Source: Haladaptatus caseinilyticus (lineage in GTDB: Archaea > Halobacteriota > Halobacteria > Halobacteriales > Haladaptataceae). Taken from it: DNA of 64,000 bases. Under the pieces are notes generated by a model. That model saw only the letters and a program-made list of their open reading frames with translations. It was not told the origin of the DNA and ran no database searches. Position numbers and translations under genes: made by a program. Shown piece after piece: positions 2,183 through 42,921 of the stretch. Numbering within the stretch: the stretch's first letter is position 1; each line of letters starts with the position of its first letter. Where the stretch lies: NCBI RefSeq assembly GCF_026248685.1, contig NZ_CP111042.1:310001-374000 (forward strand), written 5' to 3'.

Positions 2183-2393
2183 AGTAAATAATAGGATATA
2201 AATGGTTTCTCTGGTACAGCAGAGTTGTCGTGTCTGAAGAGCTGATGATGGTCTTTCGTCGGTCATTCGGTACAACGGTGGGTATACGATTTTCGTTGCG
2301 AATTACTTCCTTCCAGTCTTCCTATAGACTGCTGTAACTTTATTGGTGGTGCTATTATTATATGGCGGGAAAGATTGCGCTACGAAACCCACC

Positions 2394-3269
2394 ATGCCCG
2401 ACTCGATCAACGAAGAAGACCGCGAGATCCAATCGCACTTCGGTCTCGACACCACTGACCTCCTCGATCGAACCGCTACCACACTAACCGAGGGAACTGC
2501 CGTCAGTCGTCAACTCGGCGTCGTTGCAGCCTGCCACGCCGTCAGTAGTGCAGACGACCGCGAAGGGCCACTTCATGTCCTTGCCACGATCCCGACTGTT
2601 GCACAACCCCACCGCTTTGTGAACACACTTGCTGACCGTCCATCGGAACGATCGATCAGTAAAGCAACCTATAGCACCCTCATCGGGTCGTCAGCAGGTA
2701 AGAGCTTCACACCCGGCGCTGTATTCGACACAGGCGACGACATGGGAACAGATACGAGGACGACACACCTGTATCTCGGGAATATCGACGAGTACGACTC
2801 AAAAACCGTCCGTGCACTCACGGAATTGATGCAGGTCGGTAGCTACTCCGTCGGGTCGACCCCAGAACCGGTTCGAACCAACGCCGCACTCTTCTGTTAC
2901 GCGCCACCAAAATACGGCACCTGGGGCGAGTATGAATCGATCAGAGAGCAAATTCCGGGAAAGATAGACCTCCAACATGCCGTGGACGTTGTCGTACCTA
3001 TGTTCGATACATCTGAACAACGCGACGTAGACCCGATGGCACCCGACGAACTCGAGATGGTTCTCACTACCGGTCAGACCAACTCGGTAACAATCTCAGA
3101 CGACGTTCGAGCATACGCCGAGAGAGAGGCTTCGGAGATTACGCCGACAGGAGACGACTCCGGCGCAGATGCGTGGCCACAGATTCGCGTCACCCGGACG
3201 ATACTGAAGCTGGCCGTGTCAATAGCAAAATTCGATGTCAGTGACGTAGTTACGACCGAATTATCCTGA
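2394..3269 (+). CDS. Degenerate MCM AAA+-domain protein, predicted ATPase-dead
   Basis: This 291-residue protein keeps the layout of the C-terminal MCM helicase core but lacks its catalytic residues. GPLHVLATIPTVAQPHRF (residues 59-74) sits where MCM has its Walker A strand, without a GK[ST]. STLIGSSAGKSFTPGAVF (~94-111) matches the MCM GSSAAGLTA segment. YLGNIDEYDSKTVRALTE (~127-144) matches Walker B and keeps Asp-Glu. CYAPPKYG (~168-175) matches sensor-1 ANPKYG with Asn replaced by Pro. LQHAVDVVVP replaces the LSRFDL arginine finger. The C-terminus resembles the MCM winged-helix-proximal helices. The MCM N-terminal DNA-binding domain is absent. It may be a regulatory or structural relic. 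The ATG at 2394 is preferred over one at 2343. Confidence 0.6.
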   Translation: MPDSINEEDREIQSHFGLDTTDLLDRTATTLTEGTAVSRQLGVVAACHAVSSADDREGPLHVLATIPTVAQPHRFVNTLADRPSERSISKATYSTLIGSSAGKSFTPGAVFDTGDDMGTDTRTTHLYLGNIDEYDSKTVRALTELMQVGSYSVGSTPEPVRTNAALFCYAPPKYGTWGEYESIREQIPGKIDLQHAVDVVVPMFDTSEQRDVDPMAPDELEMVLTTGQTNSVTISDDVRAYAEREASEITPTGDDSGADAWPQIRVTRTILKLAVSIAKFDVSDVVTTELS

Positions 3270-3479: not shown

Positions 3480-4199
3480 ATGAAGCAGACACGACGAAGC
3501 GTTCTTGGCGCAATCGGAGCCGTAGCAACAGTGGGTATCGGTGCAACGCAAGTGCTTGGTGCAGACTCTAATGTTCCACTCCTCCTTGAACCACATCCCG
3601 ATGAAGAGTACCTCTTCGTCAAAAACACGACCGATTCGCCGTTCAGCCTTGACGGGCACTACGTCGACTTTGAGTACGTTAACGACGGGGAAGATCAACG
3701 GTATTCGATTCCCTCCGGCTATACGATCCCTGCCGGTGGCACAATCAAAATCGCAACTGGTGCGGGGGAGGTCCCGGAAGGCGCTATTGATATGGATCAG
3801 CCCGGTAATGAGATGAACAACTCCGAAGCCGACGTGTACGCGATCCTCGATGCTGACGAAAACGTCGTTGCTCGTAGTGACCAAGAGAAATACCGGGCGT
3901 CGATCGATCCGAACGAGGAAACAACGACTGACGAGACCACCACTGAAGAGGAAGATACCACCGACGACACCTCTGACGAAACCACGACCGAGGAAGAGAC
4001 GACTGCCGAAGACGACTCGGACGAGTCCACGTCGGAGGAGACAACCGACGACAGCGAGTCGAGCGATAGCTCCTCGAACGACACACAGTCGGATGATGAC
4101 ACTGAATCAGATGAGAGCGAAAGCTCAGGAAGCGATGACTCCGAAAATTCCGATTCGGAGGACTCGTCTACTGAAGACGATTCCCAAGACGACTGCTGA
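3480..4199 (+). CDS. Tat-exported protein with lamin-tail-like domain and acidic tail
   Basis: A 239-residue secreted protein. It starts with a Tat-type signal (KQTRRSVLGAIGAVATVGIGA, cleaved near LGA). Residues ~30-135 read like a lamin-tail/LTD beta-sandwich: EYLFVKNTTDSPFSLDGHYVDF, SIPSGYTIPAGGTIKIATG, YAILDADENVVARS. The last ~100 residues are almost entirely Asp, Glu, Ser and Thr, a low-complexity tail that could act as a hydrated linker or a glycosylation zone at the cell surface. The ATG at 3480 follows an AT-rich promoter region. It is followed 26 bases later by another Tat-exported Thr-rich protein, so the two may be co-expressed. Confidence 0.7.
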   Translation: MKQTRRSVLGAIGAVATVGIGATQVLGADSNVPLLLEPHPDEEYLFVKNTTDSPFSLDGHYVDFEYVNDGEDQRYSIPSGYTIPAGGTIKIATGAGEVPEGAIDMDQPGNEMNNSEADVYAILDADENVVARSDQEKYRASIDPNEETTTDETTTEEEDTTDDTSDETTTEEETTAEDDSDESTSEETTDDSESSDSSSNDTQSDDDTESDESESSGSDDSENSDSEDSSTEDDSQDDC

Positions 4200-4225
4200 G
4201 ACAGCCAGTCGATAACCCTATTTTC

Positions 4226-5230
4226 ATGACCAACAGATCACGGCGACGGTTTCTCACATCGGCATTGGCCACCACGAGTCTCGGTATGCTATCTGGGTGT
4301 TCGGACATCCTCGGGTCCATCGAAACCAACACACCAGAGACGTCCTCGAAAGCGCCAGACTCGACGACAGCAGTTACAGAAACGATTGCAACGACCGTTG
4401 AAACGGTGACTGCCACAACACGGTCACCCACCAGTGAGTCATCAGAGAATACCGCGGCAGAACCATCCTCGAAAAAGACCCAGCAGGACGAAACAACAAC
4501 ATCAGAACCATCTTCGACGTCGAACTCACAAGCAACAGAACAGACGACATCAGCTGAATCGACAACGTCAACGATCACCGCCTATGTTCCCGTTGAGAAA
4601 CCGACAACAACATCGGAAGATACGATGTCCGTCGAGAGTGCATTAGAGTGGTTGATTGACAGCCTCCAATCAGAAGGTGTCAATGCCTCTAACCCGACTA
4701 CGTGGCGTGATATTGCGAAAATCACCCATACGACCAAAGAGACAACCCTCCTCGATGGATTGGCTGGAGAAATCGGAACCGTGGCTGGCCATTGGGTCCA
4801 ATTCACCACCAAAGTCGAGAACCCACCATCCGAACTTCGAGTCACCCTGCAAGACAAGGATGGTGACGATATCGGAGGCTATTCGGTGATGACCAAGGAT
4901 GCAGACGCCGTGTTGGACGGATTCATGACAACCAATGAGTTCTCTCGCCGAATCGTCTCGACAATTCGATTTTCACCTGGTGTTCCGACGACTATGACGA
5001 CGCGGGCTCCATCGACCACTATGACCACGACTACCACAGCGACAACACCGCCGGAATCAACAACAACGTCGTCTCAAACGACTTACGAGCCTCCAACGAC
5101 CACAACAGAGAGCCGATACACGACAACACGCCAGACATCCTCATCTAGAACCACTACGACGACAGAAACGAGCAAATCGACAACGACTGCAACGGCCAGG
5201 GAAGCACACACGACCAAGTCATCCAGATAG
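4226..5230 (+). CDS. Tat lipoprotein with Ser/Thr-rich linkers
   Basis: A 334-residue predicted surface lipoprotein. The N-terminus has a twin-arginine motif (RSRRRFLTSALATTSLGML) followed by the lipobox SGC at ~23-26. A long Thr/Ser-rich stretch follows, then a compact domain at ~residues 130-255 (SVESALEWLIDSLQ, TTLLDGLAGEIG, PPSELRVTLQDKDGDDIGGYS). A Thr-rich tail of about 80 residues ends the protein. The tail resembles O-glycosylated stalks of archaeal surface proteins. I do not recognise the central domain. It lies 26 bases after the lamin-tail-like gene and probably shares its transcript. Confidence 0.65.
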   Translation: MTNRSRRRFLTSALATTSLGMLSGCSDILGSIETNTPETSSKAPDSTTAVTETIATTVETVTATTRSPTSESSENTAAEPSSKKTQQDETTTSEPSSTSNSQATEQTTSAESTTSTITAYVPVEKPTTTSEDTMSVESALEWLIDSLQSEGVNASNPTTWRDIAKITHTTKETTLLDGLAGEIGTVAGHWVQFTTKVENPPSELRVTLQDKDGDDIGGYSVMTKDADAVLDGFMTTNEFSRRIVSTIRFSPGVPTTMTTRAPSTTMTTTTTATTPPESTTTSSQTTYEPPTTTTESRYTTTRQTSSSRTTTTTETSKSTTTATAREAHTTKSSR

Positions 5231-5263: not shown

Positions 5264-5509
5264 CTACTTGAGGAGCTTCTTCACCGTTGACCGCACCTTC
5301 GACTTTGCTTTGCGTTTTGCATATTGTTTTGGGTTCTTGGCCTTCCGTGCGGTTCCAGACGCTTTCGAGACGCCTGTTTTCTTTCGAACCTTCCGTTTTA
5401 CTTTCCCTGTCGTCTTTCGTTTGGCGTATTTTTTCGGGTCTTTGGCTGCTCTTACAATTTTCTCAGCTTTCGATTTCTTACGACGGGTGCGAAATGGACC
5501 GATTTTCAT
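5264..5509 (-). CDS. Small, extremely basic two-repeat protein
   Basis: An 81-residue protein from ATG 5509 (a GTG at 5530 would add seven). It is roughly one third Lys plus Arg with almost no acidic residues, the opposite of normal haloarchaeal composition. Two tandem repeats of about 35 residues share the core PKKYAKRK...GKVKRKV and PKQYAKRK...SKVRSTV. Helical, lysine-faced repeats like these are usual in nucleic-acid-packaging proteins, so chromatin or RNA binding is a reasonable inference. It is convergent to the preceding lipoprotein gene and divergent from the histone-fold gene at 5710. I know no named family for it. Confidence 0.55.
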   Translation of the reverse strand: MKIGPFRTRRKKSKAEKIVRAAKDPKKYAKRKTTGKVKRKVRKKTGVSKASGTARKAKNPKQYAKRKAKSKVRSTVKKLLK

Positions 5510-5709
5510 CCCTATTCTAATTGTTTTCACACTCGATAAAGATTACTCTCGTCACATTACGAAGAGAATCGACGTGTATGCGTGTATCATTCAAGCTATT
5601 TCTTACTACTGTACGGTGATGATGAGAAATGTGTTTCCCAGGCTCAGAGTCGTCTGTCCCCGACTATTTTACCACTGTTTTTTGTAGTATTATACCGTCT
5701 GGGGCTTGT

Positions 5710-5990: not shown

Positions 5991-6467
5991 ATGAGCGTCA
6001 CAGACGATACTCCCATCTCACGAAAACGCCTCCAAACCGTGTTTGAACAACTGGCAAACGACCGAAAACTCGACATCCTCAGCTACGCGGCCGACCACGA
6101 GCAGTTCACCGTAACGGCCCTCAAAGACGACCTCGGAATTCCACATACGACAGCACACGACTATTGCCGTGAATTGCACCAAGCAGGTCTTCTGCATCGC
6201 GAGCAAATGAAGCCTGCAACCTACAGCGCAGTTGATTTCGACATTCAACTGTCACTCGATGCCATTGCGACAGCTGTCGAGACCGAGTCCGAAACAATCG
6301 ACTACATGCTTGCGACGTATGGTGAAGGTATCATCGACGAACTCCTCGATATCTGGGGGCGTGTCGAAGCAGGTGAACTCACGTACCGCGAGGCGAGTGG
6401 TACGCTTGACATGCAGCATGCTGACTTCCTTCGGCTGGCGGCTGAACTCGAGTTGTTCAACCGATGA
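5991..6467 (+). CDS. Winged-helix antitoxin-like regulator paired with a PIN protein
   Basis: A 158-residue protein with an ArsR-like winged helix in its first 75 residues (LANDRKLDILSYAADHEQFTVTALKDDLGIPHTTAHDYCRELHQAGLL). A helical C-terminal part follows (TIDYMLATYGEGIIDELLDIWGRVEAGELTYREA) that probably contacts the toxin. The last codon overlaps the ATG of the PIN gene (ATGA at 6464), giving translational coupling. This is the usual order for haloarchaeal HTH/PIN toxin-antitoxin modules. It presumably represses its own promoter; an AT-rich element with ATACGAATATTTCGTAT at about 5957-5973, a near-perfect palindrome, lies just upstream and is a likely operator/TATA region. Confidence 0.8.
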   Translation: MSVTDDTPISRKRLQTVFEQLANDRKLDILSYAADHEQFTVTALKDDLGIPHTTAHDYCRELHQAGLLHREQMKPATYSAVDFDIQLSLDAIATAVETESETIDYMLATYGEGIIDELLDIWGRVEAGELTYREASGTLDMQHADFLRLAAELELFNR

Positions 6468-6937
6468 GTGTCGTTGTACTGGATGCAAACGCAGTTATCA
6501 TGCATGGTCGAGCGTTTCCGGATCGCGTTCGTACCGCCGTTGAAAAAGGGTCTACTCTCATCCTCCCGCGGTCGGTCAAGCAAGAACTCGTTGACGATGG
6601 CCTTGCGAATGACGATGCACCAGTCAATCATCGTGCCTCAGCACGGGCAATCCAAGACCTCGTCGACGAAGGGTTCCTCGTGCTTCGGACACCGGATTTC
6701 GAAACGTACAGCGGTATCATTGATGAAGCGCGTCGACGCATTGCAGATGATACGCTCCCGGAACATACCGTCAAAGCCGATCAATACATTCCAGCCCTTG
6801 TCTGTGGTCTCGCTACTGACAATACCGTCCACCTGGTAACCGCCGATACAAAACTGCGTACTATCGTCCAAGACATTGCTGCTCGGAACGGGGTAACAGA
6901 GAACGTTATTTTGCGTGATCCGTTGACGGTGCTGTAG
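6464..6937 (+). CDS. PIN-domain RNase toxin
   Basis: A 157-residue PIN-domain protein, predicted Mg2+-dependent endoribonuclease. The first acidic residue is in VVLDANAVIMHG (residues 4-15). A conserved acid lies in SRSVKQELVDDG-type sequence near 43-50. The third site is TVKADQYIPALVCGLA near 107-122, and the last is LVTADTKLRTI near 128-138. It is translationally coupled to the upstream winged-helix protein and forms a toxin-antitoxin module with it. The length and motif spacing are normal for VapC-like proteins, so it looks intact. Confidence 0.85.
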   Translation: MSVVVLDANAVIMHGRAFPDRVRTAVEKGSTLILPRSVKQELVDDGLANDDAPVNHRASARAIQDLVDEGFLVLRTPDFETYSGIIDEARRRIADDTLPEHTVKADQYIPALVCGLATDNTVHLVTADTKLRTIVQDIAARNGVTENVILRDPLTVL

Positions 6938-15617: not shown

Positions 15618-15920
15618 ATGAGTACTCGGAAAGTCAACTTTCGTCTGCCGGAAGAACTTGTGACTCATGCAGATATCGCTGCTGAAGTCACGCATAAAAA
15701 CCGAACCGAACTCCTCATCGAAGCGCTTCGAGAGTACCTCAAGGAAATCGAATCAGAAGAGAGCTTTCAAGAAGCAGTCGTTGAACTCTATCTCGCAGAC
15801 GAACTTGATTTCGAAATCCTCCAGGACATAATCGGTCGCCAGGACGCAGAAGCAGTCCGTACCTCAAAGCAACTTCTTGATGAGGGAGACGACCTCGCCA
15901 ACAAACTTGCAGATCTGTAG
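15618..15920 (+). CDS. Ribbon-helix-helix antitoxin
   Basis: A 100-residue protein. The first ~45 residues are a ribbon-helix-helix DNA-binding domain (MSTRKVNFRLPEELVTHADIAAEVTHKNRTELLIEALREYL). A helical acidic C-terminus (LYLADELDFEILQDIIGRQDAEAVR) probably neutralises the toxin. The PIN gene starts at the base after this gene's stop codon, so the two are translationally linked. The TATA-like TTATTTTTTATC lies about 80 bases upstream. Confidence 0.85.
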   Translation: MSTRKVNFRLPEELVTHADIAAEVTHKNRTELLIEALREYLKEIESEESFQEAVVELYLADELDFEILQDIIGRQDAEAVRTSKQLLDEGDDLANKLADL

Positions 15921-16424
15921 ATGCTGGTTATCGATACAAGCGCATTCATTTCTCTCGCGATTGGTGATGTTCTCGATGACGTGCTAACCGAATACGACGT
16001 CGTGACGACGACACTCGTCATCGATGAACTCGAATCAACCGCAGAATATGATGATGTCCACGGTCACGGGGCAGTAACCGTCCTCGAACGTTCCGATCGC
16101 ATTAAGATTCTGGATATCCCCGCTCCAGATCTTTCTTCGAGTCGAATCGATGCTGGTGAGGCGAGTTGTGTCGCGGCTGTTGAAGAGATCGATGCAGCAT
16201 TTCTCATTACGGACGATTTTCGAGCACTTCCCGAACTCACTACTCTTGTCTCGGCTGATGTCGCTCTTTCACCAATTCTTCTTCGCGCACTCACCAAACG
16301 TGGTGTCCTTACTGATTCCGAAGCTCGATCTGCACTCGATACTATTGCACGTGATCGGGACTGGCTTGGTGCGCCAATCTATCACTATGCACAACGTCTC
16401 TTTGAAGAAGAGTCGGGAACGTAA
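15921..16424 (+). CDS. PIN-like toxin of RHH-PIN module
   Basis: A 167-residue PIN-fold protein with catalytic acids in LVIDTSAFISLA (residues 2-13), VIDELESTAEYDD (~34-46), IDAGEASCVAAVEE (~76-89) and LITDDFRALPEL (~94-105). This spacing and the C-terminal extension (SPILLRALTKRGVLTDSEARSALDTIARDRDW) are typical of haloarchaeal VapC-like proteins of about 165 residues. It is a predicted endoribonuclease inhibited by the upstream ribbon-helix-helix protein. Confidence 0.85.
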   Translation: MLVIDTSAFISLAIGDVLDDVLTEYDVVTTTLVIDELESTAEYDDVHGHGAVTVLERSDRIKILDIPAPDLSSSRIDAGEASCVAAVEEIDAAFLITDDFRALPELTTLVSADVALSPILLRALTKRGVLTDSEARSALDTIARDRDWLGAPIYHYAQRLFEEESGT

Positions 16425-31539: not shown

Positions 31540-32247
31540 TCACTCGATTTCCACGGTATCAAGCGTAGTCAGATACTCGGGAAGCCGCCGTGCAGCTGGC
31601 GTTGTCGTCAGTGCAACCATCCCCAACTCCTTTCGATAGGTAATGAGGTTGCTTGCGTCGAGCCGGGGAAGATGCTTATGAACGAGGACGGTTTGTGCTC
31701 GCCGGAATTCCCGACCGGACACTTCGGGAGGGACTCGACCCTCTTCGTCTCCCATGACCACGAGTGTGAGAGACGTTAGTGCACATGCATCGTCAGCATC
31801 GACTACTCCCGAGAGAATGGTCCGCCGCTGCGGATGTCCAAGCGCACCAAAAAGCCGATTTTGGACTGACTTCGAATCCTCGCGTGCATGCACAAGCAGA
31901 TTCGTCAGCCGTGGGTCTGGACGATACTGTATTTGAGACGTTTCATCTTCGTGGTCAAGAACACCAACATCAAGGAGCTTTGGCAAGAGCAGATGACGTA
32001 ACTGAATGCTCACATCCTCCCGGTTGTACGGCAATTCCGAAACGAGTACTTCGACTACTGTCGACTGTTCAAGCGTTGATTCACTTGATCGGTCAAATGC
32101 TCGCAAGACAGCTCGTACTCGTGGATCTGCAAGGAGTGTACATAGTGATTCGACAGGGAAGGACGTTACTGGACAAGTGCCAGTCGGTGGTTTCGTTGGT
32201 GGTGCACCGTCGTCTGGGCCGTTGGAGTGGCGATGGGTATCTGACAT
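31540..32247 (-). CDS. Tandem DUF7344-type winged-helix regulator
   Basis: A 235-residue acidic protein with two related winged-helix units. The first is CTLLADPRVRAVLRAF to LRHLLLPKLLDVGVLDHED (residues ~30-110). The second is LFGALGHPQRRTILSGV to VLVHKHLPRLDASNLITYRKEL (~125-215). The LxH(x)HLPxL element is the DUF7344 recognition signature. It opens a regulatory cluster of DUF7344 and HalOD1 genes reaching to 36.5 kb. The start at 32247 follows the family; ATG 32313 would add a Cys-rich stretch. Confidence 0.75.
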   Translation of the reverse strand: MSDTHRHSNGPDDGAPPTKPPTGTCPVTSFPVESLCTLLADPRVRAVLRAFDRSSESTLEQSTVVEVLVSELPYNREDVSIQLRHLLLPKLLDVGVLDHEDETSQIQYRPDPRLTNLLVHAREDSKSVQNRLFGALGHPQRRTILSGVVDADDACALTSLTLVVMGDEEGRVPPEVSGREFRRAQTVLVHKHLPRLDASNLITYRKELGMVALTTTPAARRLPEYLTTLDTVEIE

Positions 32248-32646
32248 GCATTCCTCCAGTCTCCGTGTGACAAGGACAGCCGTGCAACCGCGTGGAGCTG
32301 TGCACGCGGACATGCGTCACGTTTTAACCGGATCACATGTTGTCCGTTCCCTCTGTAGGAATTGAACGCAGTGGTGTGTCCCGTACCATAACAGAGGTGT
32401 AGAATCAGTATATAACCTATGGGTACTATTTGAGAGCTGTTTTAGCAAGCAATTCCTCGCTCGTGAAAGATACCGAATCGCTTGATTTCGTTGGTTTTAG
32501 CCCGAACCGTACAGGAATACGATAACGAAAGTACCCAAAGGAGCTATGTATAGAGGGATAGTGAGAGCGATAGAGTACTCGAGGTGAATGCTCGACTACT
32601 ACACGACCCGTATTGGTATTCAACCTCTTGTCCTCTGGAGAACCTA

Positions 32647-36060: not shown

Positions 36061-36537
36061 TTACCGAGAGTCCTCGTGGTCGTACTCGCTGCGAGCATGC
36101 GTTTCTTGCCGATTGTCGAGACTGCCACCGGCACCCTCCAACGCCGTTAACACCTGGATCGCATGTGGACCGGGGGTAATCGTCTCAGTCTCGTCATCAT
36201 ACTCGATCACGTCCAGATCGACGAGTTTCGGAACGTGGGAGTGATAGAGTGACGTATATATCTCGTGGCGCGTGAGCGTCGCGATGTTCGCCTCTACGGT
36301 GTCGGTCTCCCATGCTGCAAGTTTGGTCGCAAGGTCATCAAGCGACCATTCAGTCTCTTCGGCGAGAGTGTAGACGAGATAGCGTCGTCGTGGATGTGCA
36401 ATCGCCTCGAAGACGGGTTGTAACTCGAGGATGGTCTCCGAAACATCGATGTCGAGATCGCGCTCGGCGACGCTCTCTTCGTCGGTCCGGCCAGGGTCTC
36501 TCTCCCATTCGTCGGGAGGTAACTCGTCTCCCGCCAT
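36061..36537 (-). CDS. DUF7344 winged-helix regulator
   Basis: A 158-residue protein: acidic N-terminus, then LQPVFEAIAHPRRRYLVYTLAEETEWSLDDLATKLAAWE and IYTSLYHSHVPKLVDLDVIEYDDETETITPG (residues ~45-125). SLYHSHVPKL is the DUF7344 signature. The ATG at 36537 is used because the preceding open frame (to 36678) has a non-haloarchaeal composition. It is the upstream partner of the HalOD1-like gene at 35595. Confidence 0.8.
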   Translation of the reverse strand: MAGDELPPDEWERDPGRTDEESVAERDLDIDVSETILELQPVFEAIAHPRRRYLVYTLAEETEWSLDDLATKLAAWETDTVEANIATLTRHEIYTSLYHSHVPKLVDLDVIEYDDETETITPGPHAIQVLTALEGAGGSLDNRQETHARSEYDHEDSR

Positions 36538-36791
36538 AGCCGGCCTAGAGGCGTGAAACCTATTAAAAACTCGGTGTAGAGTGTATTTCTCGACCATATT
36601 GGACAGATACGTACTTCGTCGCCGTATCATACTATCTATGGGTACTGGTATGTTCCAAACGCGACCATTTGGAGTCACCTAGTAATGACCAGCGGTGCTG
36701 TCCTTCTGTCGGTAGCAGAAGTACCCATGTCTGCTTAGTGCACCAACCAGCAGTGAATGTTCAATATAGAATGTTCGTCGACTGAGGGTGG

Positions 36792-42252: not shown

Positions 42253-42323
42253 GTTGTCATCGTAATAGCACGTGTAGGATTTGACACAACACTTATCTCC
42301 GTGTACTGTGTATGTGTATGTGT

Positions 42324-42557
42324 ATGAGTACAAAGAACATTAGTCTCACAGAAGAGGCCTACGAAAAACTCAAATCTCGAAAACGGGAGGGAGAAAGCTT
42401 CACTGACGTGATTCTCCGCGAGTTCGGTAACGAAAAGGACGTATGGAAAGGCTTTGGCAAGCTCGAAGGGACGGGACTCCGAGAAGCCTACGAAGAACAG
42501 CGCGAAGAATTTGACAAGGATTTCAAAGAGAGACAGGATGAACTGTTTGGACAGTAG
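42324..42557 (+). CDS. VapB-type antitoxin
   Basis: A 77-residue antitoxin (MSTKNISLTEEAYEKLKSRKREGESFTDVILREFG, then a helical acidic tail EAYEEQREEFDKDFKERQDELFGQ). The N-terminal strand-helix-helix is a DUF217/VapB-like DNA-binding fold common in archaea. The start lies in a (TGTATG) triplication, GTGTATGTGTATGTGTATGAG, giving several in-frame ATGs (42312, 42318, 42324); MSTKN is the natural start. It overlaps the toxin gene by 20 bases. Confidence 0.85.
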   Translation: MSTKNISLTEEAYEKLKSRKREGESFTDVILREFGNEKDVWKGFGKLEGTGLREAYEEQREEFDKDFKERQDELFGQ

Positions 42558-42921
42558 CTTTCTCATCGACTATCTTGAGGGAGATGACGGTGCACAAGCG
42601 TGGTTGGACGACCATGAAGACACGATGCTGGCAACCACAACAGTCGCATTGTATGAGACGTATCGGGGTGTCTTGTGGTCGCACTCTTCAATGACGATGG
42701 ATGACGTGTTCGACACGTTTGATTGGGCGACTGTGTTGGATTTCGATGAAACTGCGGCCCGTGAATCAGCACAAATTCAGCGAGAGTTGCGCGAGAGCGG
42801 GACGCCTGTTGGTACACCCGATGTAATGATTGGTGCCATTGTTCGGTCTATCGGTGGCACTGTTGTCACCCGTGATTCGGATTTTGACTACATCCGAGGT
42901 GTCGATGTTGAGAACTACTGA
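42538..42921 (+). CDS. VapC PIN-domain toxin
   Basis: A 127-residue VapC ribonuclease: first acid in MNCLDSSFLIDYLEGDDG, Glu in VALYETYRG near residue 42, third acid in GTPDVMIGAIV near 96, last acids in TRDSDFDYIRGV near 112-115. All four catalytic positions are present, so it should be active. The ATG at 42538 overlaps vapB. The pair sits between two imperfect direct repeats. Confidence 0.9.
   Translation: MNCLDSSFLIDYLEGDDGAQAWLDDHEDTMLATTTVALYETYRGVLWSHSSMTMDDVFDTFDWATVLDFDETAARESAQIQRELRESGTPVGTPDVMIGAIVRSIGGTVVTRDSDFDYIRGVDVENY

Follow-up and report, generated by a model that had tools for sequence, protein, structure and literature searches.

The window, i.e., the whole stretch of 64,000 nucleotides that was analyzed, contains a 291-aa open reading frame which occurs as a single copy in this 4.8-Mb haloarchaeal genome and is carried on a 389-kb contig (C7). 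The codon usage of this frame is that of the adjacent genes and is clearly better than that of the shifted frames. Upstream of the ATG lies a TATA-like box whose spacing would fit a haloarchaeal transcript with no leader or almost none, and we infer from the sequence both a promoter function of this box and the expression of the gene. The coordinates of the gene, its motif positions, and the other features of the window are collected in table 1.

The genes adjoining this ORF encode a HAD phosphatase, a DUF7344 protein, low-complexity secreted proteins, and an HTH–PIN pair, with no replication genes among them. As no tRNA, MCM, or Orc1/Cdc6 gene was found alongside the ORF, its descent from an adjacent replication module lacks support. 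Orc1/Cdc6-type genes are located on C7 at about 5, 240, and 288 kb, the nearest detected one being about 24 kb from the ORF, and the single standard MCM of the host is encoded on another contig (C1, 1216–1219 kb). Three DUF7344 genes were observed in the window, as were three toxin–antitoxin-like pairs, each consisting of an HTH or small antitoxin-like gene and a PIN or PIN-like gene. Two adjoining genes encode secreted proteins with Tat-like and lipoprotein-like N-termini and long Asp/Ser/Thr low-complexity tails. A strongly basic ORF of 88 aa, rich in Lys and Arg, bears a repeated KxYAKRK unit and no Pfam match, which is odd against the acidic haloarchaeal proteome.

Table 1. Coordinates of the pseudo-MCM gene, its motif positions, and other features of the window
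Feature	Position	Strand	Observation and basis
DUF7344 genes (three)	1478–2182; 31540–32313; 36061–36678		
TATA-like box TATTATTATATGG	2353..2365	+	About 27–30 nt 5' of the ATG; read from the sequence
Short pseudo-MCM gene, MCM AAA+ core only	2394..3269	+	ATG at 2394, stop at 3267–3269; short-family profile 75 bits, AlphaFold model, host-like codons
Walker A position, aa 66–74	2589..2615	+	IPTVAQPHR against GDPGTGKSQ of the host MCM, no P-loop; alignments
GSSAGKS, aa 98–104	2685..2705	+	Within the shortened h2i region; counterpart of the clade A GSVSGGD-type sequence in the alignment
Walker B position, aa 128–132	2775..2789	+	LGNID against VDELD, catalytic DE most likely GN; ungapped alignment, modeled strand 125–129
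Sensor 1, aa 171–175	2904..2918	+	PPKYG against NPKYG, Asn gone; alignments
Arg-finger position, aa 193–199	2970..2990	+	LQHAVDV against LISRFDL, Arg gone; alignments
Sensor-2 arginine R265	3186..3188	+	Kept; invariant alignment column
Two secreted-protein genes	3480–5230		
Basic 88-aa ORF	5264–5530	-	
Toxin–antitoxin-like pairs (three)	5991–6937; 15618–16424; 42312–42921		

Homology to the MCM AAA+ core

The Pfam MCM profile matched the window protein with an E value of 0.041, under the Pfam cut-off, and PHROG 10371 (viral MCM helicase) with an E value of 1.5e-4. Scanning 391 haloarchaeal genomes retrieved short MCM-like ORFs of 390–430 aa with E values down to 1e-11. A profile constructed from eight of them, from which the window protein was left out, yielded 75.4 bits (E = 6.4e-22) against the window ORF, compared with 25.0 bits when 18 intact MCMs made up the profile; the best of 2000 shuffled controls for the short-family profile reached 7.4 bits, and no other ORF was reported when this profile was run over the 488 ORFs of the window. 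Ten intact MCMs share 108 invariant columns within the region covered by the window protein, which keeps 32 of these; sensor 2 is the only catalytic motif represented among the 32. The MCM homology proposed in the original prediction therefore stands well above shuffled sequences.

The predicted structure points in the same direction. The best of five AlphaFold2 models, all of them biased by the MCM alignment supplied, reached a pLDDT of 74.9 and a pTM of 0.76 (pLDDT 42–49 for the other four), and its best PDB matches were MCM AAA+ domains (Z 23.9 over 268 residues, rmsd 3.5), so that in this alignment-assisted form the fold agrees with the MCM AAA+ fold that had been anticipated. Since the alignment biases the model and prediction from the single sequence without alignment failed (pLDDT 34), the fold assignment rests mainly on the sequence profile. 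The window protein combines a significant profile match with the MCM core arrangement and hence belongs to the MCM AAA+ fold; judged from its sequence, it is an MCM AAA+ core with homology well above chance. The other AAA+ matches in the same genome (L005–L007) look like MoxR-type ATPases.

Catalytic motifs and missing domains

As originally predicted, the window protein lacks the MCM N-terminal tier, and the P-loop Lys, the sensor-1 Asn, and the Arg of the SRF motif are all seen to be lost in the alignment. The losses go further, as they also include the C-terminal winged helix (the protein stops after the sensor-2 helices), the h2i hairpin, the Lys of the PS1 hairpin, and the catalytic DE of Walker B. 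The h2i hairpin is 8–9 residues shorter, a deletion common to the short relatives described below, whereas the PS1-hairpin Lys is lost in the window protein only. Sensor-2 R265 is the sole catalytic-site residue kept, and the PKYG...YE...Q block is preserved although the sensor-1 Asn is lost. A search within 6 kb of the gene for remnants of the N-tier or the winged helix, including frame-shifted ones, found none; the best match (E = 0.007) falls within the HAD phosphatase gene and was judged fortuitous.

Four motifs had been named as retaining the order and spacing of MCM, of which PPKYG does correspond to sensor 1, but GSSAGKS and IDEYD were misassigned. GSSAGKS, proposed as the Walker A counterpart, is placed about 30 residues past the Walker A position and does not represent the GSSSAGLT motif either. 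IDEYD (aa 131–135), proposed as Walker B, begins three residues past the respective position, the modeled strand ends at residue 129, and the ungapped alignment sets VDELD on L128-G-N-I-D132, from which the catalytic DE position is most likely G129-N130 with IDEYD just behind. The resemblance of these two strings to functional motifs is what would favor an active, divergent ATPase or helicase in which P-loop and Walker B have moved; given their displacement, and with the Arg finger and the sensor-1 Asn gone too, we regard such an enzyme as highly improbable.

It has been reviewed that an MCM without h2i or PS1 is unable to unwind DNA, and that the MCM ATPase is lost when almost any residue of its active site is mutated (PMC4619765). 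Walker A, Walker B, sensor 1, and the Arg finger are all replaced in the window protein, and the h2i and PS1 hairpins, the N-tier, and the winged helix of a functional MCM helicase are compromised or missing. The loss of the catalytic motifs, of h2i, and of the PS1 Lys, together with these mutant data, indicates that the window protein works neither as an ATPase nor as a helicase; as judged from its residues, it cannot hydrolyze ATP or move DNA.

Short pseudo-MCM relatives in haloarchaea

The haloarchaeal relatives of the window protein comprise eight intact and two broken genes (intact loci L008/L084, L009, L011/L085, L079, L080, L010, and L013), which separate into two clades. Clade A includes Natronorubrum texcoconense (L008/L084), Haloferax profundi with two copies 1 kb apart (L011/L038/L085), genome G153 (L009), and the plasmids CP031299 of Natrinema thermotolerans and pNPA70 of N. 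pallidum, in both of which the gene is annotated as encoding a hypothetical protein. Clade B is confined to one genus, with intact genes in G222 and G216 and copies broken by stops in G216 (C85) and G237 (C17). We define this family by a start just before the AAA+ core, the absence of the N-tier, degenerate Walker A and B motifs, the lack of the Arg finger, and a shortened h2i, all of which are found in the window protein; the N-tier and the catalytic residues are absent from every member. The window protein shares with clades A and B the N-tier absence, the catalytic losses, the h2i deletion, and the TPG..D and GxYS motifs, but it lacks the C-terminal winged helix that most short relatives, including the intact members of both clades, keep.

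In the phylogenetic tree, a branch with 100/100 support separates the window protein, together with clades A and B, from the full-length MCMs, and this branch persists after removal of the catalytic and h2i columns. With 19–23% identity to the clade A and B proteins, the window protein is the shortest, most divergent, and longest-branched member of the family, and its own branch of 3–5 changes per site (3.4 in the tree lacking those columns) leaves its exact place in the tree unsure.

The dead proteins of both clades are maintained under purifying selection, given dN/dS values of 0.21/0.89 (about 0.24) for the Natrinema pair of clade A and 0.39/1.42 (about 0.27) for the G222/G216 pair of clade B. 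On the Natrinema plasmids, the clade A gene is flanked by a small winged-helix gene on one side and by an opposed gene of 391 aa on the other, the latter being 88% identical between the two plasmids, and the Natronorubrum contig carries both an opposed gene (41%) and a winged-helix gene (43%) related to those of the Natrinema block. The arrangement of a winged-helix gene, the pseudo-MCM, an opposed gene of 385–391 aa with no Pfam match, and a gene of about 120 aa behind was observed as a conserved plasmid block at L079, L080, and L035. In G222, the clade B gene is located 88 bp behind the core mcm on the same strand (L037:7320–10674), and the two may form one operon. The suggestion that the window gene is an inactive MCM derivative tied to mobile elements is supported by the modeled MCM fold and by the existence of similarly built relatives, which are under purifying selection and in several cases carried on plasmids.

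No close orthologue of the window protein was found in about 500 haloarchaeal genomes. In the families searched in full, namely f1 (28 genomes), f4 (125), f5 (170), f3 (146), f9 (10), and f7 (9), there was no relative closer than clades A and B; tblastn searches of viral contigs and of phage and plasmid collections for relatives of the window protein were empty, the motif pattern had 0 matches over the genome contigs, and the clade A profile revealed no relative in viral contigs. The viral-contig loci matched by the family alignment turned out to be ordinary full-length MCMs. The window protein is therefore an orphan within the short pseudo-MCM family. The original prediction had held that a lack of orthologues would mark merely a dying MCM gene, of which one half applies, as a close orthologue is absent and yet a family of short dead MCMs is present.

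Decay of this copy is a serious rival, in which a once-functional pseudo-MCM, imported by a mobile element and truncated at its C-terminus, decays without function on the megaplasmid. Its orphan status, its shortness and long branch, the missing winged helix, the absence of replication genes around it, and the broken family copies in G216 and G237 would agree with such a relic. Against it, the 291 codons contain no internal stop, the codon usage is host-like, a TATA-like box is present, and the relatives are under purifying selection. In simulations of neutral drift, at most 0.05% of the copies kept an open frame once 0.3 substitutions per site (mean identity 53%) had been reached or exceeded; since the frame is open, even though its nearest known relatives are about 25% identical, a divergence far greater than that of 0.3 substitutions per site, long neutral drift is disfavored. 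A recent loss of function is possible. We consider a relic possible, albeit on the whole unlikely.

Possible function and known counterparts

That the window protein is a dead MCM AAA+ core is the best-supported statement on it. Beyond this, we give a probability of about one half to its being an MCM AAA+ domain of the short pseudo-MCM family, stripped at both termini, that acts by binding and modulating MCM; both the binding and the direction of its effect are what we infer. Acting as a false subunit or a cap, the protein would attach to the AAA+ tier of an MCM, either that of the host or that of an element, and in this way the assembly of the helicase would be blocked, stalled, or steered to the benefit of the carrier element. 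Docking is proposed because the protein keeps its AAA+ fold as well as the trans-acting Arg of sensor 2, and the likewise indirect support for the MCM-binding reading also includes the maintenance of the family, its carriage on plasmids, the copy behind a host mcm, and the precedents given below, whereas the orphan status of the gene, the lack of adjacent replication genes, the loss of the winged helix kept by most short relatives, and the dependence of the fold model on an MCM alignment speak against it. That the protein might regulate or inhibit replication, as first suggested, is plausible.

The small winged-helix regulator genes adjoining clade A, the winged helix kept by that clade, and the reviewed tighter hold of h2i-deleted MCM on double-stranded DNA (PMC4619765) might instead suggest a DNA-binding or scaffold protein acting off MCM altogether, e.g., a regulator of the element that binds at an origin or promoter. 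Nevertheless, the usual MCM contacts to DNA (winged helix, PS1 Lys, and N-tier) are all absent from the window protein and its AAA+ fold seems retained, which makes this function distinctly unlikely.

Extending the MCM-binding reading to the family, we tentatively propose, as something possible rather than probable, that dead MCM cores maintained on haloarchaeal plasmids and integrated elements poison, cap, or re-program the host helicase, the window gene being a minimal AAA+-only form and an archaeal counterpart of pseudo-subunit MCM regulation. Archaeal MCM has been studied as a homohexamer, and we know of no dedicated inhibitor or pseudo-subunit in haloarchaea. If true, a maintained family of dead MCM cores would provide a genetically tractable model (Haloferax, Natrinema) of elements seizing or blocking the CMG helicase, as well as a comparison for MCMBP and mixed MCM rings.

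In comparison with the haloarchaeal replicative MCM (Haloferax volcanii type), the window protein exhibits the same AAA+ fold, order of secondary structures, PKYG..YE..Q block, and sensor-2 Arg, but at about 20% identity it lacks the N-tier, Walker A and B, sensor 1, Arg finger, h2i, PS1 Lys, and winged helix. Among the precedents, the four MCMs of Methanococcus maripaludis co-purify (PMC3984812), and MCMBP, which has an MCM-like domain without Walker A, aids MCM2–7 assembly (PMC9018068). MCMBP offers a possible model of action, although it is eukaryotic and larger, and is likened here by domain features. The MCM homologue of Methanopyrus kandleri has been reported as catalytically inactive (Bae et al. 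2009, cited in PMC3972481) and, likened by description only, represents another inactive archaeal MCM relative; its structure was not seen among the PDB matches listed for the window-protein model.

Extra MCM-related genes in haloarchaea have likewise been described as "outlier" MCMs (Kristensen et al. 2014, PMC3972481), of which four short ones (312–315 aa) comprise the N-terminal domain only and the other nine have intact Walker and SRF motifs. That set does not describe dead forms with the AAA+ part only, and the open-access literature searched for such forms yielded no description, so that the family of short dead MCM cores is apparently undescribed. The published picture is also corrected in that short haloarchaeal MCM relatives are not exclusively N-domain forms. 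Moreover, full-length haloarchaeal MCMs in which Walker A, Walker B, and the SRF Arg are partly or wholly lost were observed on plasmids and contigs (L003, L017, L018, L020, L022, and partly L002), contradicting the uniformly intact full-length outliers of the 2014 survey. The opposite truncation was found on a Halorussus pelagicus plasmid (G019:C4, L041:7177–10390), where a 271-aa ORF that matches the lid and winged-helix portion of MCM immediately precedes a full-length MCM whose Arg finger and Walker B Glu are broken.
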